Below, one piece after another: positions 251 through 19,773 of a stretch of DNA of 64,000 nt. Source of the DNA: Candidatus Melainabacteria bacterium (GTDB lineage: Bacteria; Cyanobacteriota; Vampirovibrionia; Obscuribacterales; Obscuribacteraceae); assembly GCA_012965515.1 (NCBI GenBank), contig DTSE01000164.1, positions 1-64,000 on the forward strand, in the 5' to 3' direction. Numbering within the stretch: position 1 is the first letter of the stretch; every line of letters starts with the position of its first letter. The notes beneath the pieces are model-generated. The model saw only the letters and a list, made by a program, of their open reading frames with translations, had not been told where the DNA came from and ran no database searches. The position numbers were made by a program, and so were the translations under genes.

Positions 251-1153
251 ATGAAAAACACAGAAAATTTGAATCTGGAAAGAACAAAATCACGCTCGGT
301 AAAAGGCATCATCACTTCGATTGCAACGAGAGAAGGCGCGGGCTTTGCAGTGCGGCGACCTTTTCCAACTCACTCGCTTAGTTATGTAGATCCATTTCTC
401 CTTCTCGATCACATGGAGCCGGTTACGCTCGCTCCCGGTGCAGCCAGAGGCGCACCGGATCATCCGCACCGCGGTTTTGAAACAGTCACATACATGCTCG
501 AAGGACATTTCGTTCATCGCGATTCGGCTGGAAACTCTGGAACAATTGGACCAGGAGATGTGCAATGGATGACCGCTGGTCAAGGCGTTGTTCACTCTGA
601 AATGCCTGATGACGAGCTTCTCGAAAATGGTGGCAGGCTCCACGGCTTTCAAATCTGGGTCAACTTGCCTGCGAGAGAAAAGCTGATAGCGCCTCGCTAT
701 CAGGATATTCCTTCCAGCCAGATTCCGATTGCAGAAAGTGAGGACGGCAAGGTTTGGGTCAAAGTAATTGCCGGTCAATCGATGGGAAAAGAAGCTGTTA
801 TTGACACACGCACGCCAATTACGTTCTTGCATGCGAAGTTGAAACCAGGCGCCAAGCTGGTACAGCCAGTGTCTTCGCAATACAACACGTTTGCATATGT
901 TGTGGAAGGAAAAGGATATTTCGGCAACGAGCAATTGCCGGCAGAAACTGATCAACTCGTATTGTTTTCAAATAACGGTGACACCGTCTTGATTGAAACA
1001 CAGGAGAATCAAGAGTTGAGTGTGCTTATCCTTGGTGGATTGCCGCTGAATGAACCGGTCGCAAGATATGGTCCGTTCGTGATGAACACTCAATCTGAAA
1101 TTGTGCAGGCGCTGCAGGACTATCAAGCCGGCCGCATGGGGGCGATCAGTTAG
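251..1153 (+). CDS. Pirin family protein (bicupin)
   Basis: This 300-residue protein has the full pirin signature. HPHRGFETVTYM spans residues 71-82 and QGVVHSEMP ends near 119, so the expected metal ligands H71, H73, H115 and E117 are all present in the N-terminal cupin. The C-terminal cupin, about residues 170-285, is also present. Bacterial pirins of this type include quercetin dioxygenases (YhhW/YhaK) and modulators of pyruvate metabolism; substrate cannot be told from sequence. No signal peptide is seen, so it is cytoplasmic. An AGGTGG ribosome-binding site lies just before the ATG. It sits directly behind a MarR-type regulator. Confidence 0.92.
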   Translation: MKNTENLNLERTKSRSVKGIITSIATREGAGFAVRRPFPTHSLSYVDPFLLLDHMEPVTLAPGAARGAPDHPHRGFETVTYMLEGHFVHRDSAGNSGTIGPGDVQWMTAGQGVVHSEMPDDELLENGGRLHGFQIWVNLPAREKLIAPRYQDIPSSQIPIAESEDGKVWVKVIAGQSMGKEAVIDTRTPITFLHAKLKPGAKLVQPVSSQYNTFAYVVEGKGYFGNEQLPAETDQLVLFSNNGDTVLIETQENQELSVLILGGLPLNEPVARYGPFVMNTQSEIVQALQDYQAGRMGAIS

Positions 1154-5596: not shown

Positions 5597-7006
5597 ATGT
5601 TCAAAGAAATCGTTTCGCAAGCTGTGCCATTCATCGATCACTGGCTTCAATTTCGATATGCCAGGCTGGAAATGCCTGGGTTTGTCGTCGCGATTTCGAT
5701 TGACGGCAAAGTCGAATTCTTGAAAGCATACGGATATGCGGATGCGGAAAAGGGCGAACCGATGACTACCGATCACGTCTTTAGAATCGCTTCGCATAGC
5801 AAGACTTTCGCAGCTACCGCAATCATGCAGCTTGCAGAGGAGAGACTCCTGCATATTGATGAGCCTGTCGCGAAGTATGTTCCCTGGCTGCGCGACCACA
5901 AAGACCATCGAATGGAAAAAGTCACCATCCGTCAATTGATGTCTCACAGCGCAGGCATGATCAGAGATGGCAAAGATGCAAATTTCTGGCAGTTGACTAA
6001 CAGCTTTCATGATCTGGCTGACTTCAAAAAAGCACTGATGAGTTGCGATCTTGTTTTTGACACCAACAAGCAAATGAAGTATTCGAATTTCGGTTATGCG
6101 TTGCTTGGATGTGTGGTTGAGGAAGTTTATGGCATGCCCTTCTCTAGCTATGTGCAAGCGAAAATTCTGCAACCGCTTGGTTTGTCGCACACGACATCCG
6201 AAGTAAATGATGATATGCATTCCAAGCTTGTCGTTGGTTATACTCGCCGTGGCCGCGAGAAAAAACGTCAAGCGATAGAGAAGCATATTGATACAAGACA
6301 AATGGCAGCCGCGACTGGATTCTGCTCGACAGCAGCTGATCTTTGTAAGTACTTCGAAGCTCACTTCGTTGGTTCGAAAAAACTATTGAATGACGAATCA
6401 AAGAAAGAAATGCAGCGAACACAGTGGCGTGTCAAAAACACACACATCGGTGAAGAGTATGGATTAGGTTTTCAAATTGAGTCGGTACTCGATAGAAAGG
6501 TTTATGGACACGGAGGTGCGTTTCCTGGTCAGCGCACAAAAACGATTTGCGATTCCAACGAAAAATTGATTATCGTGGTGCTAACGAATTGCATAGATGG
6601 CGAGGCATCTTACATGGCGCGTGGTTTATACACTGTGCTCGACCATTTTCATGGCAGTGCCTATCGCGCCGATCGAGAAACTATCGACCAACTGCGAAAA
6701 TTCGAGGGAATTTACACAAGTCTTTGGGGCGACCTGGCAATTGTCGAATCCGGAAGAAATCTTATTGGTGTCGATCCAAATACTTGGTTTCCTTTCGGGC
6801 GCGATCAAGAAATTCAGGTGCTGGAGCTGGCCGGCGATAACAGGCTGAGAATTGCCAATGCGAACGGTTATTACAGCGAGGGCGAATATGCCGAGTTCGA
6901 CTTTGACTTCAATGGCAACGTCATTTCCGTCGACTATGCCGGCTACAACATGCTGCCGGAATCCGAATACAGCCACGATTTCGCAAAAACCAAGGTAACT
7001 ACCTAA
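5597..7006 (+). CDS. Serine hydrolase, beta-lactamase class C / penicillin-binding-protein fold
   Basis: This 469-residue protein has the active-site set of the class C fold: SxxK as SHSK (Ser66-Lys69), YxN as KYSNFGYALLG, and HGG in YGHGGAFPG. The N-terminal 350 residues form the hydrolase domain. The last ~110 residues resemble the small beta-barrel domain often appended to such esterases or peptidases. There is no obvious signal peptide, which is unusual because relatives generally act outside the cytoplasm. Function is probably an esterase or D-amino-acid peptidase rather than antibiotic resistance. An AAGGA ribosome-binding site precedes the ATG. A second serine hydrolase of this fold begins at 63626. 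Confidence 0.88.
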   Translation: MFKEIVSQAVPFIDHWLQFRYARLEMPGFVVAISIDGKVEFLKAYGYADAEKGEPMTTDHVFRIASHSKTFAATAIMQLAEERLLHIDEPVAKYVPWLRDHKDHRMEKVTIRQLMSHSAGMIRDGKDANFWQLTNSFHDLADFKKALMSCDLVFDTNKQMKYSNFGYALLGCVVEEVYGMPFSSYVQAKILQPLGLSHTTSEVNDDMHSKLVVGYTRRGREKKRQAIEKHIDTRQMAAATGFCSTAADLCKYFEAHFVGSKKLLNDESKKEMQRTQWRVKNTHIGEEYGLGFQIESVLDRKVYGHGGAFPGQRTKTICDSNEKLIIVVLTNCIDGEASYMARGLYTVLDHFHGSAYRADRETIDQLRKFEGIYTSLWGDLAIVESGRNLIGVDPNTWFPFGRDQEIQVLELAGDNRLRIANANGYYSEGEYAEFDFDFNGNVISVDYAGYNMLPESEYSHDFAKTKVTT

Positions 7007-7076: not shown

Positions 7077-8678
7077 ATGTTGAGACAAATACTCTCGTTA
7101 GCCCTGGTAGCCGCAGTCTCTTTCTCCGCGGCGACAAGTCCGGTTTTTGCCGGCGTGAGTGCTGTAGGTGAGATTAAGAACACCCCGAAGGATCATCCGG
7201 GGCTTGTATTGGACCAGTTTTACCTCGGGTGCTTATCACACGCCTCCTATCTAATCGGCGACCCGGTGAGCAAAACTGCAGTGGTTGTCGATCCTCAGCG
7301 CGACATCAGTCAATATGTCGAGGAGGCAAAGAAACAAGGTCTAAAAATCACACATGTTTTCCTGACCCACGTGCATGCCGATTTTGTTGCAGGGCATTTA
7401 GAACTGCAGCGAAAAGTAGGTGCAAAAATCTGTCTCGGTTCAAAAACAAAGGCGAGTTTTCCATTTACCAGAATGACCGAGGGCGATGTAGTCGACCTGG
7501 GAAATGTTCAATTGAAGGTTTTAGAAACGCCGGGGCACACTCCGGAAGCGATTTCTCTTCTCGTCTACAACTCCAAGGTGAATAAGGATAAACCATATGC
7601 AGTGTTGACTGGAGATTGCTTGTTCATTGGCGATGTCGGACGTCCTGATTTACTGGCATCGCAGGGTGTCACAGCGCAGGAACTGGCCTGTTTGCTGTAT
7701 GACTCGACCCGCGAGAAGCTCATGAAGTTGCCCGATGAAACACTTGTGTATCCTGCTCATGGTGCCGGATCTCTTTGCGGGAAGAACTTGAGCACAGAAA
7801 CTGTTTCTTCCATCGGACAAGAGAAGAAAACAAACTACGCGCTTAAGTCGATGCCGAAAGAAGAGTTCATTGCACTTATAACGGCGGATCAACCGAAGAC
7901 TCCTCAGTATTTTGGCTATGACGCGAACTACAACTTGAGTCAGCATAAGACTCTAGACGAAGTTTTGGAAAAGTCGCTTAAACCTTTGACTGTGGATGAA
8001 GCTATTCAGCAGCGTAATGCCGGTGCTCATTTGTTGGATGGACGCGAATCCGATGACTTCGCAAAACGGCATGTAGTGGACGCGATTAGCATTCCAATGA
8101 AGGGGCACTATGCTACATGGGCAGGAACTTTCCTCGACCACAACAAACCAGTGGTGATAATTGCTGACGCAGGCAAAGAACGGGAGGCCGCAATGCGTCT
8201 TGGACGCATCGGGTTTGACAATGTTGTTGGCTACGTAAAGGACGGGATTGCTGCCTTTGAAAAGCGCGATGATTTGGTAGTCTCAAATGTGCGCGCGACA
8301 CCAGAAACTCTCTCGGCGCAGATGAAGTCTGAGAAGCCGCCCATGGTTGTCGACGTCCGCAATGACGCAGAGTGGAATTCGGCGAATATTGAAGGCTCTG
8401 TGCACATGCCTTTGATTAGCCTTTTGGACAGAGTCGATAGTCTGCCTCGCGATCGTGAACTGGTCATTCTTTGCGCAACCGGAAATCGTTCATCTACTGC
8501 TGCGAGTCTATTGAGTCAAAGGGGGGTTACGCGCGTAACTGATTTGGCAGGTGGAATAGAAGCCTGGCAGAAGCAGCATCTGCCGGTTAAGCAAGCGGTG
8601 AGCTGCACTAAGAACTCGGAAGTCATGGCTCCTAGAGATGAGAACACCTCAAAACGAGACGCCAAAACAAGCAACTGA
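7077..8678 (+). CDS. Exported metallo-beta-lactamase/rhodanese fusion (persulfide dioxygenase-sulfurtransferase, CstB-like)
   Basis: Starting at the ATG at 7077 (the upstream TTG at 7053 would bury the signal peptide), the protein has 533 residues. A Sec signal peptide occupies 1-25 (cleavage near VFAG). The metallo-beta-lactamase domain spans about 45-250. The expected ETHE1-type iron ligands are H98 (THVHAD), H154 (PGHTPE) and D180 (LTGDCLF). A first rhodanese-like domain, about 305-400, has no catalytic Cys (the loop reads IIADAGKERE). A second, about 410-505, has an intact CATGNRS loop with Cys466. This order matches CstB/BLH-type enzymes, which oxidise persulfides to sulfite or thiosulfate. 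Export to the periplasm is unusual for the family. It heads an operon with a sulfite dehydrogenase and an oxidase. Confidence 0.9.
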   Translation: MLRQILSLALVAAVSFSAATSPVFAGVSAVGEIKNTPKDHPGLVLDQFYLGCLSHASYLIGDPVSKTAVVVDPQRDISQYVEEAKKQGLKITHVFLTHVHADFVAGHLELQRKVGAKICLGSKTKASFPFTRMTEGDVVDLGNVQLKVLETPGHTPEAISLLVYNSKVNKDKPYAVLTGDCLFIGDVGRPDLLASQGVTAQELACLLYDSTREKLMKLPDETLVYPAHGAGSLCGKNLSTETVSSIGQEKKTNYALKSMPKEEFIALITADQPKTPQYFGYDANYNLSQHKTLDEVLEKSLKPLTVDEAIQQRNAGAHLLDGRESDDFAKRHVVDAISIPMKGHYATWAGTFLDHNKPVVIIADAGKEREAAMRLGRIGFDNVVGYVKDGIAAFEKRDDLVVSNVRATPETLSAQMKSEKPPMVVDVRNDAEWNSANIEGSVHMPLISLLDRVDSLPRDRELVILCATGNRSSTAASLLSQRGVTRVTDLAGGIEAWQKQHLPVKQAVSCTKNSEVMAPRDENTSKRDAKTSN

Positions 8679-9909
8679 TTTGCCGGAAAGCATTGACGTT
8701 AGCAGGCGAAAATTTTTGCTTCTAGCGGCGACTTTAGCAGCTGGCAGTTTGACGTCCGCATGTTCGCGCGTGCGTCAGGAAGACTATCAGAAAGGCGGAA
8801 TTATTCAGGTAAAAGAAGGTCTCTCCGTCGCTCGTTTTCCCGAGAAAGAAGAGTTGATCATGCTGACTGATCGTCCTCCACAGCTCGAAACGCCTCTATT
8901 TTATTATCGCCAGGATCTTACGCCCAATGAAGCTTTTTTCGTGCGCTGGCATTTTTCCGGCATACCGACTTCCGTTGACCTGCAAACATTCAAACTTGAA
9001 GTTGGTGGACACGTTCAAAAGCCAGTTTCACTCTCCGTCGAAGAACTGCGAAGACAGTTTGAACCTGTGTCAATCGTCGCCGTAAATCAATGCTCCGGCA
9101 ATTCGCGCAGCTATTTTGCACCGCAAGTGCCAGGCGGACAATGGGGACATGGTGCTGTAGGTAACGCACGGTGGACCGGTGTGCGTCTAAAAGATCTATT
9201 AAACAAGGTTGGAGTAAAATCGCAGGCCGCGCAGGTTACATTCGCTGGTTTGGATGAGCCACCTCTCTACAGCATGCACAAATTTGTGAAAGCCTTGGAC
9301 ATCGACCACGCCACTGGCGATGATGTTTTGGTTGCTTATGAAATGAATGGCGAACCGCTGCCGATGCTAAACGGCTTTCCACTTCGTTTAGTGGTGCCGG
9401 GATGGTATGCGACTTATTGGGTCAAATCATTAGCTAAGATCGAGGTTTTAGCCAGTAAGTTTGACGGTTTTTGGATGGAAAAGGCATATCGTATTCCTAA
9501 AAACGAAAATGCCAGTGAGACTCCTGAGAATCTAGCGAAGGATACTGTTCCAATTAATCGAATGAACGTGCGTTCGATTGTGGTTCGCCCTGATGTCACC
9601 GACGTGGTGCGCGCCGGTAAGTCGTTTGAATTGGAAGGAATCGCTTTCGATGGTGGCAGCGGGATTTCAAAAGTGGAAGTCTCAGTTGACGGAGGCACCA
9701 CTTGGTCCGCGGCAAGATTGGATGATACCGATTATGGCAAGTTTTCGTTTAAGCGCTGGAGAATGTCTTGGACACCTGCTTCCAGTGGGAAGTTCAAAGT
9801 AATGACCAGAGCTACCTCCGGAGATGGAAGAGTTCAAGGAGCGCAATTTTGGAACAAGAGCGGTTACATGAGAAATGGAATTGAGCAGATCGAGGTTCCG
9901 GTGGTTTAG
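8638..9909 (+). CDS. sorA: Sulfite dehydrogenase, molybdopterin subunit (SorA-like)
   Basis: The 423-residue protein belongs to the sulfite oxidase family. A twin-arginine signal (SRRKFLLLAATLAAG, residues 22-36) indicates folded export with the molybdenum cofactor. The cofactor-ligating Cys is in NQCSGNSR (Cys152). NGEPLPMLNGFPLRLVVPG and GWYATYWVKSL are the conserved molybdopterin-domain segments, and the C-terminal ~120 residues form the Mo-co dimerisation domain. There is no heme b5 domain, so electrons must leave through a separate cytochrome, as in bacterial SorAB. It overlaps the upstream MBL-rhodanese gene by 41 bases, and the SorB-like cytochrome begins 4 bases after its stop. The predicted reaction is periplasmic sulfite to sulfate. 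Confidence 0.9.
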   Translation: MRTPQNETPKQATDLPESIDVSRRKFLLLAATLAAGSLTSACSRVRQEDYQKGGIIQVKEGLSVARFPEKEELIMLTDRPPQLETPLFYYRQDLTPNEAFFVRWHFSGIPTSVDLQTFKLEVGGHVQKPVSLSVEELRRQFEPVSIVAVNQCSGNSRSYFAPQVPGGQWGHGAVGNARWTGVRLKDLLNKVGVKSQAAQVTFAGLDEPPLYSMHKFVKALDIDHATGDDVLVAYEMNGEPLPMLNGFPLRLVVPGWYATYWVKSLAKIEVLASKFDGFWMEKAYRIPKNENASETPENLAKDTVPINRMNVRSIVVRPDVTDVVRAGKSFELEGIAFDGGSGISKVEVSVDGGTTWSAARLDDTDYGKFSFKRWRMSWTPASSGKFKVMTRATSGDGRVQGAQFWNKSGYMRNGIEQIEVPVV

Positions 9910-9913
9910 CGCA

Positions 9914-10354
9914 ATGAAAATTTTAAGAATGCCGGTTTTCGCGATCTTGATACTGTCCGCAGTACTCTATCTAGTGTCATACACTTGTGGAGCGCCGCCT
10001 GTGAAGGCTGAAGACACTAATTCCAAAGGCGAACCAACGCAGCTGAATGTACCCAAAGACGCGAAAACAGACAAGAAAGCAGTCCAAGTTACCAGCAAGT
10101 CGATAGAGTTGCCGCACTATCCAGCTGATTTTCCACCGGGCAAAGGAAAAGAGCTGTTTGTCTCTCGTTGTGGTGTATGTCATACGCTCAGATACGTTAC
10201 GATGCAGCCGCATTTCCCAGAGAAAACTTGGGCCAAGGAGGTGGACAAAATGATAAAAACGTACGGTGCCCACATCGACAAAAAGGAAGCAAAAGAGATC
10301 GTTGATTACCTCAACACAATTAAAGGCAAGAGCCCGAGCGTGAATAAGCAGTAA
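9914..10354 (+). CDS. sorB: SorB-like monoheme cytochrome c
   Basis: The ATG at 9914 gives 146 residues. An N-terminal hydrophobic signal or anchor (about 6-25) is followed by a Pro/Lys-rich linker and one c-type heme site, CGVCH (C86, C89, H90). Downstream, W-x-x-x-V-x-K-M, YGAHID and IVDYLNTI match the layout of SorB cytochromes of sulfite dehydrogenases. A Met in YVTMQPHF or DKMIKTYGA could be the sixth ligand. It lies 4 bases after sorA, and its stop overlaps the next start by one base. It is the predicted electron acceptor of SorA. Confidence 0.85.
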   Translation: MKILRMPVFAILILSAVLYLVSYTCGAPPVKAEDTNSKGEPTQLNVPKDAKTDKKAVQVTSKSIELPHYPADFPPGKGKELFVSRCGVCHTLRYVTMQPHFPEKTWAKEVDKMIKTYGAHIDKKEAKEIVDYLNTIKGKSPSVNKQ

Positions 10355-10893
10355 TGGCGGAATCACCAGACGAGATCAAATATTCGGATAAAGGAAGCGG
10401 CAACAAAACGCCCGTGATTCTCGCCGTCCTGATTGCTATTTTTGCTGCAGGCGTTTCAATTTGGGGAGTTAACAGCACCGGACTGATGGCCGGAATTCCG
10501 GATGCAAGCGCTCCTACAGCATCACCACCGACGGTAGCACTGCCGTCTGATAAAAACGAAAAGGAGCGTTTGCTCAAGTTAGGTGCAAGAGTTCATCAAG
10601 AAAGCTGCGCAGGCTGTCATTCTGTCGATGCAAAACTAATTGGACCCTCGTATATAGCTATCTGCAGGAAGTATGGCGAATCAACAGAAGTTAATGGCGC
10701 TCCAACTCCTGGTGTTACTGATCAAATCGATGTCAGCGCAATAAGTGCAATTAGTTTTGCCACCACTCATCCCAAAAACAATTGGCAATCATATCAGCGC
10801 GGTCCTGAATTGAGTCTGTCTGCAGAAGAGCGGCGAGCCGTGGCTATCTGGATCTTCAATTTCTCCAATGAAAGGGAGGGTGCGGATGACTAA
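10354..10893 (+). CDS. Membrane-anchored monoheme cytochrome c
   Basis: The protein has 179 residues. A short cytoplasmic N-terminus is followed by one transmembrane anchor (about 20-38), an Ala/Pro/Thr-rich linker, and a class I cytochrome c domain with CAGCH (C85, C88, H89). The following LIGPSY resembles the loop after the heme site in c5/c551-type cytochromes. It is probably an electron shuttle from the sulfite dehydrogenase to the fused oxidase encoded next. It starts inside the preceding stop (TAATG) and ends 8 bases into the oxidase gene, so all three are translationally coupled. Confidence 0.88.
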   Translation: MAESPDEIKYSDKGSGNKTPVILAVLIAIFAAGVSIWGVNSTGLMAGIPDASAPTASPPTVALPSDKNEKERLLKLGARVHQESCAGCHSVDAKLIGPSYIAICRKYGESTEVNGAPTPGVTDQIDVSAISAISFATTHPKNNWQSYQRGPELSLSAEERRAVAIWIFNFSNEREGADD

Positions 10894-13603
10894 TTCTCCT
10901 GAGAATCTGAAGTCGTCCACCATGCCTGCAGTGGAGTTCGGATTGATCAAGGCGCACGCGATCGCGGCTATGGTTACGGTGCTGATAGCCGTTACTTTCG
11001 GAATATTGGTATCACTGAAACTGCACACCCCCGATTTTGCAAGCGCGAGTCCGTTCTTGACGTGGGGACGATTGCGTTACAACCATACCCAAGGGATTTT
11101 CTTTGGATGGCTGGGCAACGCGTTCTTGATGTTCCTCTATTATGCTGTTCCGATGCTCTCGATGCGTCCCGTTCTCAGCCGCAAGCTCGGATGGATTCTT
11201 TTTAGTCTGTGGAATTTTGCAGTTGTTTTGCCGGGTTGGTTGCTGGTGCTCGCCGGCTTTAGTCAGCCTCTGGAATGGGGTGAGTTTCCACTTATTGTTG
11301 ATGCGTTTGTAGTAGTTGCATTTCTCGCGTCTGTCGCTCAGTTTGCAATACCATTGTTGAAGACAAGACTTTCATCTCTTTATGTCAGTGGCTGGTACAT
11401 TCTGGGTGGACTCATATTCACGCTCTTTGCGTATCCGATTGGCAATGTCATTCCGCAGATTGTGCCCGGTGCTCAAGGTGCTGCTTACAGCGGACTGTGG
11501 ATACACGATGCCATTGGTTTGTACGTGACACCACTCGCTCTTTCAATGGCGTTCTTTGTTGTTCCGCTGGTGACCAAGAGACCGATCTACAGCCACTTCC
11601 TGTCGATGCTTGGTTTCTGGCTGCTCTTCTTTGTCTATCCGTTGAACGGAACGCATCATTACGTCTTTTCAGCGATCCCGATGGATGCACAAAAGGGCGC
11701 GATCGTCGCGTCTGTTTATTTAGGCATGGACGTAATCTTGGTGGTGACAAATCTCCTCGTTTCCATGCGGGGATGTTCAAAGCTGTTAAAGGAAGACCTT
11801 TCTCTGCGTTTCGTCTGGATGGGGACAATTCTGTATTTGATTGTCAGCTTGCAAGGTTCCATGCAGGCGCTATTGCCTTTCAATCGTCTAGTGCACTTTA
11901 GCGATTGGGTGATTGGTCATTCTCACCTGGCAATGCTAGGCTTTGCTACTTTCACCTCTATTGGTGGCATGACGTACGTTTGGCAGCGAGTTCCGCACGC
12001 ACGTTTCAACAAGAGGGCGCTAAATCACGCTTACTGGCTTTTATTGATTGGAATGATCACAATGGTGTCGCTGCTGACTGCAGCAGGCATTGCCGAATCG
12101 AAAGTTTGGGAAACATCGCTTCCTTGGCTCGAATCTGTCAGAGCCGCCAAAGACTATTGGATGTATCGCACTTTCTCTGCCGTATTGGTGATCGGCGGTT
12201 TCATTTCGCTTTTCACATCCTTCTTCACTGGCGCAGCGCGTGAATCATCTGCCCAGACTGTATCGACTGTAATCGACAACAGTGCAGTTGGTAATCAAAC
12301 AAGAGAGACCGAGCCGGACGTAGACAATGAAATCAAAGCTGCATCGCCGGTACCCAAACGTTTGGGAATGGCATATGCGGCTGCGGGAATCGGCGGTATC
12401 GGTTTTTTCTTACTATCGTTCACTGTATTGGCTGTGATACCAGGTATGGCACTGCAAAATGAGATTGCAAGAACAAAGCCATCGACAATGTTACTTCCAA
12501 CTGAGCAAGAGCAAAGGGGTCGCATTGTTTATGCCAGAGAGGGTTGCGCTTACTGTCATACTCAGCAGATTCGCACTGTTCGACAGGACGTCGAGCGATT
12601 TGGTGCGCCTACTCGCGCCTGGGAAAATCGTTATGACTATCCTCAATTGTGGGGAACTCGCAGAATCGGTCCTGACCTCTCGAGAGAAACTAGCATTCGC
12701 TCTGATGATTGGCAATTGACACACTTGTATAATCCGCGCTCGATTGTTCCGGATTCGGTAATGCCATCCTTCCCTTGGTTATTCGATGGTTCGCCTGCAA
12801 AACCGAAGGCAGAAGCCGCTGATTTGCTTGCGTACATAAAATCTCTCGGTAAAGCTCGGCAGTTGTCTGGAAATGATCCAAAGCAATTCACGCTTGCACC
12901 GAATTGTGAATGTCCTGATGAAGTCAAGAAAATTGAAACAACTCCGGTGCCCCTGGACGCTAGTGGTTCGACGCGAACTGTAAATGTGCCACCATTTGAA
13001 GTTACTTTGCCTGGTGATGCTGCGAAACTAGCTAATCTTCAGCGCAAGGGCGCTGCTATTTTTGCCAGGAATTGCCAGGGCTGTCACGGAGAAATGGGAG
13101 ATGGACAGGGACCGGCGGCGGAAGGCTTGCTGCCGAAGCCTTCTGGATTGATCGAGGCAAACTACACAACCAAGCATCTTGTATCCGTGCTCATGAACGG
13201 AGTTCCGGGAACAGCGATGCCTGCCTGGAGAGACTTACCTAGAGGTGATATCGAGGCATTGGTTGCGCACCTCAAGACGCTTCCTGAGCGGCCCGTTTAC
13301 ATAACCTCTGCAGAAGAGATGGCAAGCAAGGAAGTGCAAGAGGGAAAGAAGATTTACGAGCAGAAATGTCTTTCCTGTCACGGTATTGAGGGTGATGGCA
13401 AGGGACCAGCCGCCGCAGGGCTTGATCGACCGCCCGCGAATTTCAAAGAAATTCAACCAGAACCGGATGATCTTCTAACGGTGCTTGAAGTAGGCGTTGC
13501 CGGAACGAGCATGCCGCCGTGGAAAGACCAGCTCACAGAGCAGGAACGGGACAATCTCTCAAGGTACGTTCAAGCATTTTTCGTGGAGGAGACCAAGAAG
13601 TGA
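10886..13603 (+). CDS. ccoNOP: cbb3-type cytochrome c oxidase, CcoN-CcoO-CcoP triple fusion
   Basis: A GGGAGG site six bases ahead selects the ATG at 10886, giving 905 residues. Residues 1 to about 465 form a 12-helix CcoN. H67 fits a low-spin heme ligand, H207 (WIHDAIG) and H257/H258 (NGTHHY) fit the CuB ligands, Y251 (FVYPLNGTHH) aligns with the cross-linked Tyr of C-family oxidases, and H345/H347 (IGHSHLA) fit the heme ligands. A CcoO module follows, with one helix and EGCAYCHTQQIR (C554, C557, H558), then RIGPDLSR. Two further cytochrome c domains carry CQGCH (C730) and CLSCH (C828), like CcoP but without their own anchor. All three core subunits are thus one polypeptide. CcoN-CcoO fusions are known; a three-part fusion is unusual. 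The preserved Tyr argues against a nitric oxide reductase. Confidence 0.92.
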   Translation: MTNSPENLKSSTMPAVEFGLIKAHAIAAMVTVLIAVTFGILVSLKLHTPDFASASPFLTWGRLRYNHTQGIFFGWLGNAFLMFLYYAVPMLSMRPVLSRKLGWILFSLWNFAVVLPGWLLVLAGFSQPLEWGEFPLIVDAFVVVAFLASVAQFAIPLLKTRLSSLYVSGWYILGGLIFTLFAYPIGNVIPQIVPGAQGAAYSGLWIHDAIGLYVTPLALSMAFFVVPLVTKRPIYSHFLSMLGFWLLFFVYPLNGTHHYVFSAIPMDAQKGAIVASVYLGMDVILVVTNLLVSMRGCSKLLKEDLSLRFVWMGTILYLIVSLQGSMQALLPFNRLVHFSDWVIGHSHLAMLGFATFTSIGGMTYVWQRVPHARFNKRALNHAYWLLLIGMITMVSLLTAAGIAESKVWETSLPWLESVRAAKDYWMYRTFSAVLVIGGFISLFTSFFTGAARESSAQTVSTVIDNSAVGNQTRETEPDVDNEIKAASPVPKRLGMAYAAAGIGGIGFFLLSFTVLAVIPGMALQNEIARTKPSTMLLPTEQEQRGRIVYAREGCAYCHTQQIRTVRQDVERFGAPTRAWENRYDYPQLWGTRRIGPDLSRETSIRSDDWQLTHLYNPRSIVPDSVMPSFPWLFDGSPAKPKAEAADLLAYIKSLGKARQLSGNDPKQFTLAPNCECPDEVKKIETTPVPLDASGSTRTVNVPPFEVTLPGDAAKLANLQRKGAAIFARNCQGCHGEMGDGQGPAAEGLLPKPSGLIEANYTTKHLVSVLMNGVPGTAMPAWRDLPRGDIEALVAHLKTLPERPVYITSAEEMASKEVQEGKKIYEQKCLSCHGIEGDGKGPAAAGLDRPPANFKEIQPEPDDLLTVLEVGVAGTSMPPWKDQLTEQERDNLSRYVQAFFVEETKK

Positions 13604-13770
13604 TCTACGGTCTACTTATCCTGATGACTGTTCTAATTGGTGCTTACGTTTTGGCTTGGTTCGTCAGCCCATCGTTGCGCAAATGTTTGGAAAGACCAAA
13701 TCAAAATTTGTTGGATAACAGTGAAAAGTTCGAGCAAGTGCACAAAAACTCTAGCGGAGTGCTGAAATGA
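13600..13770 (+). CDS. Small single-helix membrane protein of the oxidase operon (CcoQ/CcoS-like)
   Basis: A GTG start at 13600 overlaps the oxidase stop in GTGA, with a GGAGGAG ribosome-binding site upstream. The product has 56 residues: a membrane helix at once from residue 2 to about 24 (IYGLLILMTVLIGAYVLAWF), then a short charged tail. Size, topology and position match the tiny CcoQ or CcoS proteins of cbb3 operons, but sequence alone does not decide between them. Its stop overlaps the start of the SnoaL-like gene in ATGA. Confidence 0.75.
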   Translation: MIYGLLILMTVLIGAYVLAWFVSPSLRKCLERPNQNLLDNSEKFEQVHKNSSGVLK

Positions 13771-14159
13771 AGGGCGAGGATAAAGTCGAGATTCAAGAGC
13801 TGACCGCGCGTTATGCCAACGCGATGGACGATACCGACCTCGACTCATGGATGGCGACCTGGGATGCGAACGGATTGTGGAAAGGGGGATTGGGAGATTT
13901 CCAGGGAACCGATAAGCTGAAGAAACTCTTTGCTGCACTAGGCGAGCGGATTAAGAACAGACGCCACGTGATGACCAATTTTGTAATCGAGGGAGATGAC
14001 GCGCAGGCGACGCAGCGTTGTTACATGTTGGTGTTCGATCGAGTGAATGAAGCTCGACTCATAGCTTCGGGCGTTTACAATGACCGCCTAATTAAGTCTG
14101 ACGGTAAGTGGAAGTTTCTGGAGCGCCGGGTAGCTCTTGACCCGAGTTTCCGACCATAG
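13767..14159 (+). CDS. SnoaL-like / NTF2-fold protein
   Basis: This 130-residue protein has the layout of the SnoaL-like (NTF2) fold: an N-terminal helix with IQELTARYANAMDD, then SWMATWDANGLW, and a C-terminal strand-rich half ending GKWKFLERRV. There is no signal peptide. Members of the fold include dehydratases, isomerases and ligand-binding proteins. A polar pocket is likely but no specific substrate is indicated. It is the last gene of the sulfur/oxidase operon and overlaps the preceding gene by 4 bases, so a link to that pathway is inferred only from coupling. Confidence 0.75.
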   Translation: MKGEDKVEIQELTARYANAMDDTDLDSWMATWDANGLWKGGLGDFQGTDKLKKLFAALGERIKNRRHVMTNFVIEGDDAQATQRCYMLVFDRVNEARLIASGVYNDRLIKSDGKWKFLERRVALDPSFRP

Positions 14160-17437: not shown

Positions 17438-18631
17438 ATGAAAATTCAAGAAATTGAGATTTCGGGCTACAGGTCTATTGACGACCTTAAACTTGAACTG
17501 AACAATGTGACAGTTCTGGTCGGCGCAAATGGCTGCGGGAAAAGTAACATCTATCAGTCGATAAATCTGATCGCTGCGGCTGCGACGGGGCAATTTGCGC
17601 GTCGCATCGCAGAAGAAGGCGGCATGCAGTCGATACTATGGGCCGGTGATAGAGGGAAGCGAGAGCAGATAAGGACGCGTCTATCAGTCGGATTTGAACA
17701 GCTTCGCTATTCAATAGAGTTTGGGCTGATGCCGGCTAGTGAACGACTGGCCGGTTTCGTCTATCCGGACGGCACGCAAGATACGGAACTCTCAATCTTT
17801 AAGCTTGATCCAGATATCAAAGAAGAGACTGTTGAAATAAAAACTGGTAAGCGTCTGGTTAATCTGTTGAAGAGGAAACGGTCGATTGTCCTAGCGAAAG
17901 ATATCGACGGCGAGGAACAGGCTTATCCAGATGCTCTTGGTGAAAGTGAATCTGTTCTATCCGAACTACGAGAACCACATAGATTTCCGGAGCTCGCGAA
18001 TCTCAGATCTCAGTTTCTTCGCTGGCGTTTCTATCATGATTTTAGAACTGATCTACAGTCTCCCATCAGAGATCCACAACTAGCAACGATGACGCCGGTT
18101 CTTAGTCACGACGGCAGAGATCTGGCGGCAACACTTGCAACAATTCGTGCGGTAGGAGACAAGGCGAAGCTAAATCATTCGTTGAAAAAGGCCTTCCCTG
18201 ATTCCGATGTAATTGTTGAGGAAGAAGGCGGTACAGTTCATATGCGTATGAGTTTTCCAGGAGTAACAAGAGAACTCGAGGCTAGAGAACTTTCTGATGG
18301 AGTTCTGCAGTATCTGTGTTTGCTTGCCGCTTTGTTGACGCCGCGCCCGTCACCATTTATGGTGCTCAATGAACCCGAGACAAGTATACATTTTGATTTG
18401 CTGAAACCAATGGCGGATTTAATTACTGCGGCATCGGAGAATTCTCAGATACTACTCACCACTCACTCGAAAGAACTCGCACGAGCGCTTCGACTCAAAG
18501 GGGCGACAACATATGAGTTGGAAAAGATTGATGGTGCGACTTGTCTGCGGGGAAAGCGCAAGGTAAGAACGCAGGAACAAAAGATGCGTGGTTGGCTTGG
18601 TCCAGAAACAGATGTAATGGAAGATGAGTGA
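17438..18631 (+). CDS. SMC/RecF-like AAA ATPase, first of a tandem paralogous pair
   Basis: The 397-residue protein has Walker A GANGCGKS (residues 29-36), an ABC-type signature ELSDGVLQYL, Walker B MVLNEPETS and the switch His in TTHSKELA. This is the minimal 'predicted ATPase' (COG4637-type) layout, with no TOPRIM nuclease domain as in OLD proteins. The middle insert holds REPHRFPEL and WRFYHDFRTD, conserved in its neighbour. In this copy the usual SLHPDL after Walker B reads SIHFDL. It probably dimerises on ATP; the substrate is unknown. Its stop overlaps a possible GTG start of the second ATPase. Confidence 0.85.
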   Translation: MKIQEIEISGYRSIDDLKLELNNVTVLVGANGCGKSNIYQSINLIAAAATGQFARRIAEEGGMQSILWAGDRGKREQIRTRLSVGFEQLRYSIEFGLMPASERLAGFVYPDGTQDTELSIFKLDPDIKEETVEIKTGKRLVNLLKRKRSIVLAKDIDGEEQAYPDALGESESVLSELREPHRFPELANLRSQFLRWRFYHDFRTDLQSPIRDPQLATMTPVLSHDGRDLAATLATIRAVGDKAKLNHSLKKAFPDSDVIVEEEGGTVHMRMSFPGVTRELEARELSDGVLQYLCLLAALLTPRPSPFMVLNEPETSIHFDLLKPMADLITAASENSQILLTTHSKELARALRLKGATTYELEKIDGATCLRGKRKVRTQEQKMRGWLGPETDVMEDE

Positions 18632-18639
18632 GGGGTGTG

Positions 18640-19773
18640 GTGAGTCTCGCTGAATTCTCAATTCAAAACTATCGCTCCATTAAGCATGCTTGGCTGAAGC
18701 TTGATCGCATGAATGTGATTGTCGGTCCAAATGGATCAGGCAAAAGTAATTTATATCGAGCTATTTATTTACTCGCCTCAACCGCATCTGGAAGATTAGC
18801 CAGGAATGTTGCGGAAGAAGGTGGTATGTCATCCGTTCTTTGGTCTGGAAAAGGTTCAGACAATAAGAAGGTTGAGCTTTCTGTGAAACTAGACAATTTG
18901 CAATACGATCTTACTTTTGCCGCCTTGTCACCTTCTCTTGGTGGTGGCAAAGATTCTGTTTTCAAAAACGATGTTGAAATTCTCAAAGAGGAGATTAACA
19001 TCAAAAGCGGACAGTCTCGCTCTTGCATTTTGAAACGTAGCAAGGCAGCTATCTACTTGGTTGATGCAAAAGGCACCAAGGTTGATTACACCATGCGCGT
19101 GCCTGCCAATGAATCGATTCTCTTTGGGATCAGAGAGCCTCACCGTTTTCCACAACTTTCTGCTCTCAGGCAAGAGTTCTTAAGTTGGCGATTCTATCAT
19201 CACTTTCGTACTGACAAAGAATCTCCTTTGAGAAAACCTCAGTTGGCCGTAATGACACCAAGAATGGCTCACGATGGGAGTGACTTCGTTTCTGCAATTG
19301 CCACTATTCTTCAGTGGGGAGACAGCAATGGGTTGCTCAATAGTTTGGATGATGCGTTTCCCGGTTCCGATTTAGCAATATCCGAGTCGTCTTCTGGTTT
19401 GCGTGTCTTGTTCAAGTCTTCTGATTTACGCAGAGCATTTCAGACGCATGAATTGTCCGATGGCACGCTCCAATATTTGTGTTTGCTCGCGGCTCTTTAT
19501 AGCTTGGATCCACCATCTGTGTTGGTAATTAATGAACCGGAGACTAGTCTTCATCCTGATCTAAGCGAACCGTTGGCCCGACTCCTGGTAGCAGCTTCGC
19601 ATCGCTCACAAGTTTGGATTACTACGCATTCTCGGGATCTTGCCGACTCGATCGTAGAGCTTGGAGGATATTCTCCGATTGAGCTTGAGAAAGTGGAAGG
19701 TGAAACCAAATTGCTGGGCGTAAGTATGGGGCGTTATCGAGAGTCCTTTCAACAATCGGAAGACGACGACTAG
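18640..19773 (+). CDS. SMC/RecF-like AAA ATPase, second of a tandem paralogous pair
   Basis: From a GTG at 18640 the protein is about 377 residues (alternative GTG starts lie at 18628, overlapping the previous stop, and 18637). Motifs are Walker A GPNGSGKS (29-36), signature ELSDGTLQYL, Walker B LVINEPETSLHPDL and TTHSRDLA. It shares REPHRFPQL, WRFYHHFRTD and LAVMTPRMAHDG with the preceding ATPase, so the two arose by tandem duplication and then diverged considerably. No nuclease or membrane domain is seen. Two co-transcribed ATPases may form a heterodimer; a role in DNA repair or defence is possible but unproven. Confidence 0.85.
   Translation: MSLAEFSIQNYRSIKHAWLKLDRMNVIVGPNGSGKSNLYRAIYLLASTASGRLARNVAEEGGMSSVLWSGKGSDNKKVELSVKLDNLQYDLTFAALSPSLGGGKDSVFKNDVEILKEEINIKSGQSRSCILKRSKAAIYLVDAKGTKVDYTMRVPANESILFGIREPHRFPQLSALRQEFLSWRFYHHFRTDKESPLRKPQLAVMTPRMAHDGSDFVSAIATILQWGDSNGLLNSLDDAFPGSDLAISESSSGLRVLFKSSDLRRAFQTHELSDGTLQYLCLLAALYSLDPPSVLVINEPETSLHPDLSEPLARLLVAASHRSQVWITTHSRDLADSIVELGGYSPIELEKVEGETKLLGVSMGRYRESFQQSEDDD

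Follow-up and report, generated by a model that had tools for sequence, protein, structure and literature searches.

The plus strand of a 64,000-nucleotide stretch (the window) of contig DTSE01000164.1, from the Candidatus Melainabacteria bacterium assembly GCA_012965515.1, carries at positions 7077-14159 a gene cluster that joins a sulfite dehydrogenase to a fused cbb3-type oxidase. The window belongs to contig C164 of the genome, which was assembled from a metagenome, spans 6.3 Mb and is 76% complete. Judged from genomics alone, the cluster is probably a dedicated, membrane-anchored sulfite:oxygen respiratory unit, and the recurrence of the SorA-oxidase pairing among soil-dwelling members of three other phyla suggests that this respiratory route from sulfite to oxygen is dedicated and can be transferred.

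The cluster consists of seven genes in series, none separated from the next by more than 4 bases and some overlapping it by up to 41; a preliminary description of this DNA had given 4 bases as the limit for both, which holds for the gaps and fails for the overlaps. The series opens with a CstB-like persulfide dioxygenase/rhodanese (PDO; 7077-8678, ATG start), followed by a SorA-type molybdenum sulfite dehydrogenase (8638-9909, overlapping PDO by 41 bases), a SorB-like monohaem cytochrome c (9914-10354; the ATG at 9914, leaving a gap of 4, is the likeliest start, with an alternative at 9875) and a membrane-anchored monohaem cytochrome c (10354-10893, 1-base overlap with SorB). The fused oxidase CcoNOP, of 911 amino acids, runs from 10868 or 10886 to 13603 (overlap of 26 or 8), and a 56-amino-acid one-helix membrane protein (13600-13770, GTG start, overlap of 4) and a SnoaL-like protein (13767-14159, overlap of 4; PF13577, E 1e-20) complete the row. 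We confirmed these seven same-strand genes and the domain content previously named for them by Pfam, NCBIfam and PDB searches. A promoter and terminator scan of the cluster gave no signal above that of shuffled sequence.

When we searched 40 related genomes and scanned 84,980 species genomes, the fused oxidase turned up within the genus and in two other genera of the family; beyond the family, it occurred in Acidobacteriota, Planctomycetota and Pseudomonas. The conserved core is SorA, SorB, usually the membrane cytochrome c, CcoNOP and the one-helix protein. Wherever the contig was long enough, the order SorA, SorB, (cytochrome c), oxidase was either kept or replaced by a thiosulfate-type neighbourhood. 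SorA was present in 11 of 50 genomes of the family, and in all 11 the oxidase was next to it; in genome G196 the cassette is divided over two contigs, with the adjacency running across the contig break. The oxidases of this clade are rare, occurring in 5 of 247 sampled Acidobacteriota genomes (a count that leaves out three other matches of only 34-35% identity) and 2 of 246 Planctomycetota, and a scan of Pseudomonadota returned only the two genomes already known. Chance adjacency of the genes is ruled out by the recurrence of the SorA-SorB-(c)-CcoNOP order in four phyla. The seven-gene operon proposed in the preliminary description is therefore conserved in relatives as regards SorA-SorB-(c)-CcoNOP, and is ruled out as a whole conserved unit, as PDO (Obscuribacterales only) and SnoaL are lineage-limited. 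The Pseudomonas cassettes encode CcoN and CcoO-P as separate proteins. Two of the Pseudomonas records, P. poae DSM 14936 (L066) and P. graminis DSM 11363 (L067), have identical gene coordinates and identical sequence starts over the stretch that they share, which reflects either a mislabelled record or a very recent transfer.

A CcoN tree of 43 rows placed 27 clade oxidases apart from 16 ordinary cbb3 on a long branch (100/100 support), and this separation persisted when three long-branched outgroup rows were removed; identity between the two groups is about 30%. SorAB or thiosulfate-type genes were found near 26 of the 27 clade oxidases and near 0 of the 16 ordinary ones, figures that include near-copies among the clade loci and are not a count of independent events. 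Eighteen clade loci have SorAB, and seven have cytochromes of the SoxA/TsdA type, in some cases together with thiosulfate dehydrogenase or DsrE-annotated genes; of the remaining two, L063 is truncated, and L065, cut off on its upstream side, has a homologue of thiosulfate dehydrogenase on the downstream side. The 16 ordinary loci gave no match to SorA or thiosulfate dehydrogenase, and the weak SoxA-like matches at two of them (26-27%) are probably their own cytochromes. SorAB and thiosulfate neighbourhoods are mixed across the tree and need two changes each.

Several thiosulfate-type neighbourhoods illustrate this range. The second fused CcoNOP of Edaphobacter aggregans (L114:7179-17257) lies beside a type III sulfide-quinone-reductase-like gene, and its further neighbours are a thiosulfate dehydrogenase homologue (below the curated cut-off), a solute-binding protein, a SoxA/TsdA-type dihaem cytochrome, TauE and a CstB-like PDO with no evident signal peptide. 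Plasmids of Acetobacter, Komagataeibacter and Paraburkholderia carry related oxidases with DsrE-annotated proteins, solute-binding proteins and cytochromes c; those of Acetobacter ascendens (L091) and Komagataeibacter xylinus (L093) are mobilizable and have nearly the same layout around the sulfur-linked cbb3 in both genera. A second, separate SorAB-oxidase neighbourhood is found on the Paraburkholderia fungorum plasmid NZ_CP099624 (L134:1-6548), where a cbb3-like oxidase of another kind (sharing 31% identity with that of the window and 64% with an Azoarcus one) is followed downstream by a P-type ATPase and then by SorA and a cytochrome c.

The host genome places the cluster in a wider respiratory chain. 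Contig C245 encodes an ordinary cbb3 (CcoN and CcoO-P) with a cytochrome c, a Rieske protein and two cytochrome b genes, and no cytochrome b or Rieske genes occur beside the fused oxidase within the reported operon. Because the separate cbb3 sits beside Rieske and cytochrome b genes, the reported cluster appears to form a second oxygen-reducing branch without bc genes of its own; complex III genes are present in the organism, beside a different cbb3. Alternative complex III was rejected as a donor, with no NrfD-family protein in the 9 genomes searched. The genome also encodes TatC and MoaA, of the twin-arginine translocation (Tat) and molybdopterin pathways, and contains a third member of the oxidase family, a protein resembling quinol nitric oxide reductase (qNOR) that was named by size and sequence appearance, not by model search.

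CcoNOP might instead be a general oxidase fed by the cytochrome c pool as a whole, in which case shared regulation or block transfer would account for its adjacency to SorAB. Periplasmic cytochromes c usually swap electrons freely, as this explanation would have it. In addition, SorAB of Starkeya novella functions from a separate locus, and the oxidase genes of that organism lie elsewhere (PMC3797975). We consider a general oxidase unlikely, though the strongest of the alternatives, since the clade as a whole is tied to sulfur genes and none of its 27 loci shows an ordinary setting, since different sulfur dehydrogenases are paired with the clade oxidase on different branches, and since complex III genes already accompany another cbb3 in the host.

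The sequence of CcoNOP agrees with its proposed role as the terminal enzyme of a dedicated unit. A single chain combines COX1 (CcoN), FixO (CcoO) and two CBB3 (CcoP) domains, with CxxCH motifs at residues 560, 736 and 834 that correspond to three haem c, one in CcoO and two in CcoP. It matches chain A of PDB 3mk7 (E 2.4e-38), and although the structure model is mediocre (pLDDT 60, pTM 0.52), cbb3 structures are the best match to its CcoN part (3mk7, TMt 0.81). The haem and CuB ligands and the cross-link tyrosine (H73, H213, Y257, H263, H264, H351, H353) are invariant in 27 of 27 clade oxidases. As all of these are conserved, CcoNOP is by sequence an oxygen reductase and not a nitric oxide (NO) reductase, an assignment ruled out by the cross-link tyrosine and the CcoO and CcoP domains. 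The 56-amino-acid protein that follows (hydrophobic residues 1-19) occupies the place of CcoQ, and homologues follow CcoNOP in Obscuribacterales, Pseudomonas (L067, L071), Acidobacteriota (L076) and Planctomycetota (L069, L115).

The clade departs from ordinary members on the CuB side. Position 203 (P. stutzeri numbering) is Gly in 27 of 27 clade oxidases and Trp in 16 of 16 ordinary cbb3, and the local motif is SGLWIHD in the clade, as opposed to Trp at 203 followed by GHN. Trp203 is highly conserved in most, not all, cbb3 members, and so is not strictly defining; Gly203 is known in Nitrospina gracilis and in some Sinorhizobium oxidases (PMC3578206). This clade-wide change would fit an enzyme that is chiefly a scavenger of oxygen or NO and pumps few or no protons, sulfite being merely its electron source, and the related loss of Trp in Nitrospina has been read as affecting charge transfer (PMC3578206). 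We find such a scavenger less likely still than a general oxidase, given that the metal-ligand histidines and the cross-link tyrosine are all kept, that three haem c domains are present, and that the genome has a separate qNOR-like protein, identified as described above, for NO.

The best family for the cluster SorA is NCBIfam SorA (513.5 bits, below the equivalog cut-off of 600), ahead by more than 300 bits of SorT (197 bits) and SoxC (TIGR04555; 171 bits against a cut-off of 420). These scores place the protein outside SoxCD and rule out SoxCD as an alternative to SorAB. It matches SorA in PDB 2blf (E 3.6e-112), and when aligned to this structure it keeps the molybdenum ligand C152 and the sulfite-site residues R103, H105 and Y284. 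The protein has a Tat signal with arginines at 23-24 and a cysteine, Cys42, after the hydrophobic stretch. This cysteine is found in all Obscuribacterales, Acidobacteriota and Planctomycetota cassette sequences that reach the position, is missing in the Pseudomonas cassette SorA and in four plasmid SorA of other loci, and is a putative lipid anchor; the residues preceding it do not always match a strict lipobox. SorB has NCBIfam SorB as its best match (77.4 bits against a cut-off of 93), one CxxCH motif and a hydrophobic N-terminus. The extra cytochrome c (PF00034, one CxxCH, hydrophobic segment 21-39) is likely an electron relay; the locus search gave no match to it at L060, L061, L068, L069, L074 and L076.

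Transporters add some context to these cassettes. SLAC1/TDT-family transporters flank SorAB cassettes in Pseudomonas and in a lichen acidobacterium, an ordinary SorA of Deinococcus has a TDT transporter as its neighbour, and SorA of Methylobacterium has a putative sulfate exporter close by. Ssu1 of yeast, which exports sulfite, offers a parallel to the bacterial TDT transporters; a literature search found no support for bacterial TDT proteins as sulfite exporters. That the molybdenum protein uses another substrate (an organic sulfur compound, for example, or the kind of sulfane carrier used by SoxCD), so that the unit would not be a sulfite oxidase, is the least probable alternative and a quite improbable one: the score under the curated SorA cut-off and the upstream persulfide enzyme of Obscuribacterales speak for it, against the lead of SorA over SorT and SoxC, the retained ligand Cys and sulfite-site Arg, His and Tyr, and the transporters beside these SorA genes.

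PDO and SnoaL are the variable members. PDO combines Pfam Lactamase_B and two Rhodanese domains, with full-length best PDB matches to 3tp9 (E 5.5e-90) and 3r2u (E 7e-64, covering residues 43-493). Metallo-beta-lactamase (MBL) motifs begin at residue 97 and include H154 and D180, and the active-loop cysteine (C466) is present in the last rhodanese only, the other domain being a pseudo-rhodanese; this is the CstB architecture of MBL, pseudo-rhodanese and rhodanese over the full length. Sequence and hydropathy indicate an N-terminal signal peptide (hydrophobic residues 5-23), likewise in the relatives L060 and L061, so the protein is probably exported and periplasmic. Among the cassettes compared, PDO lies upstream of SorA at Obscuribacterales loci only. 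At L140:1190-1446 (G196:C547), beside an intact SorA, its residues 1-46 are joined to residues 490-529, apparently a large internal deletion or a mis-assembly. Since PDO is confined to Obscuribacterales and appears reduced in G196 with SorA and the oxidase retained, sulfane sulfur would be an optional input and sulfite the core substrate. The dedicated sulfur-to-oxygen path bypassing bc1, as first proposed, has strong comparative support in the SorAB-oxidase adjacency in four phyla, the sulfur-linked clade and the separate bc-linked cbb3, and its sulfane-sulfur step does not extend beyond Obscuribacterales, in one of which it is apparently deleted. The SnoaL gene is co-located in genus-level relatives only and a downstream tetratricopeptide repeat (TPR) gene likewise in near relatives only; the SnoaL-like protein is probably outside the core unit.

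From these comparisons we infer the substrate, the electron transfer between the parts, oxygen as the acceptor, proton pumping and the lipid anchor. SorA, exported by the Tat pathway and probably lipid-anchored on the outer face of the membrane, would oxidize sulfite to sulfate and pass electrons by way of SorB and the membrane cytochrome c to the haem c domains of CcoNOP, whose CcoN core would reduce oxygen to water with charge separation and no bc1 or b6f complex. In Obscuribacterales, the exported PDO/rhodanese probably feeds in sulfite made from persulfides or thiosulfate outside the cytoplasm. With SorA membrane-bound, SorB and the cytochrome c in the membrane too, and haem domains tethered to the oxidase, the parts would act as one surface-bound unit that removes toxic sulfite and gains some energy. 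By analogy with cbb3 oxidases in general, it may be used at low oxygen.

Several observations weigh against this account of a dedicated unit. CstB-type enzymes may release thiosulfate instead of sulfite, and thiosulfate, if it were the product of PDO, would not serve as a SorA substrate; outside Obscuribacterales, PDO is no part of the cassette. SorA and SorB both score under their NCBIfam equivalog cut-offs, and several cassettes have no extra cytochrome c. The tree leaves a single origin of the SorAB link unproven: a single SorAB clade was not rejected (p-AU 0.158) in a test that scored the truncated loci L063 and L065 as SorAB by tree position. The altered active-site motif also weakens the case for low-oxygen use, and Trp203, replaced by Gly throughout the clade, is thought to be involved in charge transfer near CuB (PMC3578206). 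A broader evolutionary proposal, which we judge to be evenly balanced, is that the clade, marked by a rebuilt CuB-side motif (SGLWIHD), arose to serve periplasmic SorAB or thiosulfate-type dehydrogenases as a terminal oxidase of their own, in one membrane-anchored complex that spreads between phyla as a block.

Outside the cluster, a pirin-family gene (window 251-1153) lies upstream and has the same upstream position in related loci (L044/L070, L045). Directly upstream of PDO is a beta-lactamase-family (serine hydrolase) gene (window 5597-7006), an order conserved in the genus (L056, L058, L075). Further along, window 17438-19773 contains a tandem pair of similar AAA/SMC-like ATPase genes of about 390 residues each, the first of which matches AAA_21, a putative AbiEii-toxin AAA model.

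SorAB is usually pictured as feeding a shared cytochrome c pool. If the reading of a dedicated unit is true, the cassette would amount to a respiratory chain at its smallest, a single dehydrogenase with a single oxidase, movable between phyla, with no need of quinone or a bc complex. It would explain how soil and biofilm heterotrophs, non-photosynthetic relatives of cyanobacteria among them, get rid of sulfite while gaining energy, and would provide a natural test system for the role of the CuB-side tryptophan in cbb3 oxidases. Cultured hosts include Edaphobacter aggregans DSM 19364 and Pseudomonas spelaei CCM 7893.

SorAB, a fused cbb3 (in Nitrospina gracilis) and CstB are each known beforehand; our literature search, which covered open-access papers only, found no description of the coupled cassette or of a consistently sulfur-linked cbb3 clade. 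The cluster SorAB resembles that of Starkeya novella in its molybdenum subunit and monohaem cytochrome c, its catalytic residues and its periplasmic export; the Starkeya locus, however, is sigE-orf1-sorAB with cbb3 elsewhere (PMC3797975), whereas the cluster SorA has a putative lipid-anchor cysteine and an oxidase of its own. FixNOQP/CcoNOQP cbb3 share with the cluster oxidase the CcoN ligands, the CcoO and CcoP haem domains and a one-helix protein after the oxidase, and differ from it in that here N, O and P are fused, position 203 is Gly and there are no cytochrome b or Rieske neighbours. The 954-amino-acid cbb3 of Nitrospina gracilis also has three subunits in one gene and Gly203, in a genome with a SorAB-type enzyme, and no link between the two is described there (PMC3578206); only Gly203 is common to both motifs, with His202, Tyr205 and Tyr208 in Nitrospina and Ser202, Trp205 and Asp208 in the clade. 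Staphylococcus aureus CstB likewise joins an MBL persulfide dioxygenase with an inactive and an active rhodanese in one chain, but is cytoplasmic; the cluster PDO has a signal peptide, is probably periplasmic and is encoded with a sulfite dehydrogenase and an oxidase. Finally, in the complex III/IV cluster of aerobic Melainabacteria, an arrangement matched by contig C245 of the host, a cbb3 is also encoded with genes for its electron donor; there the donor is a quinol-oxidizing b6f-like complex (PMC6349859), whereas in the cluster reported here it is a sulfite dehydrogenase.

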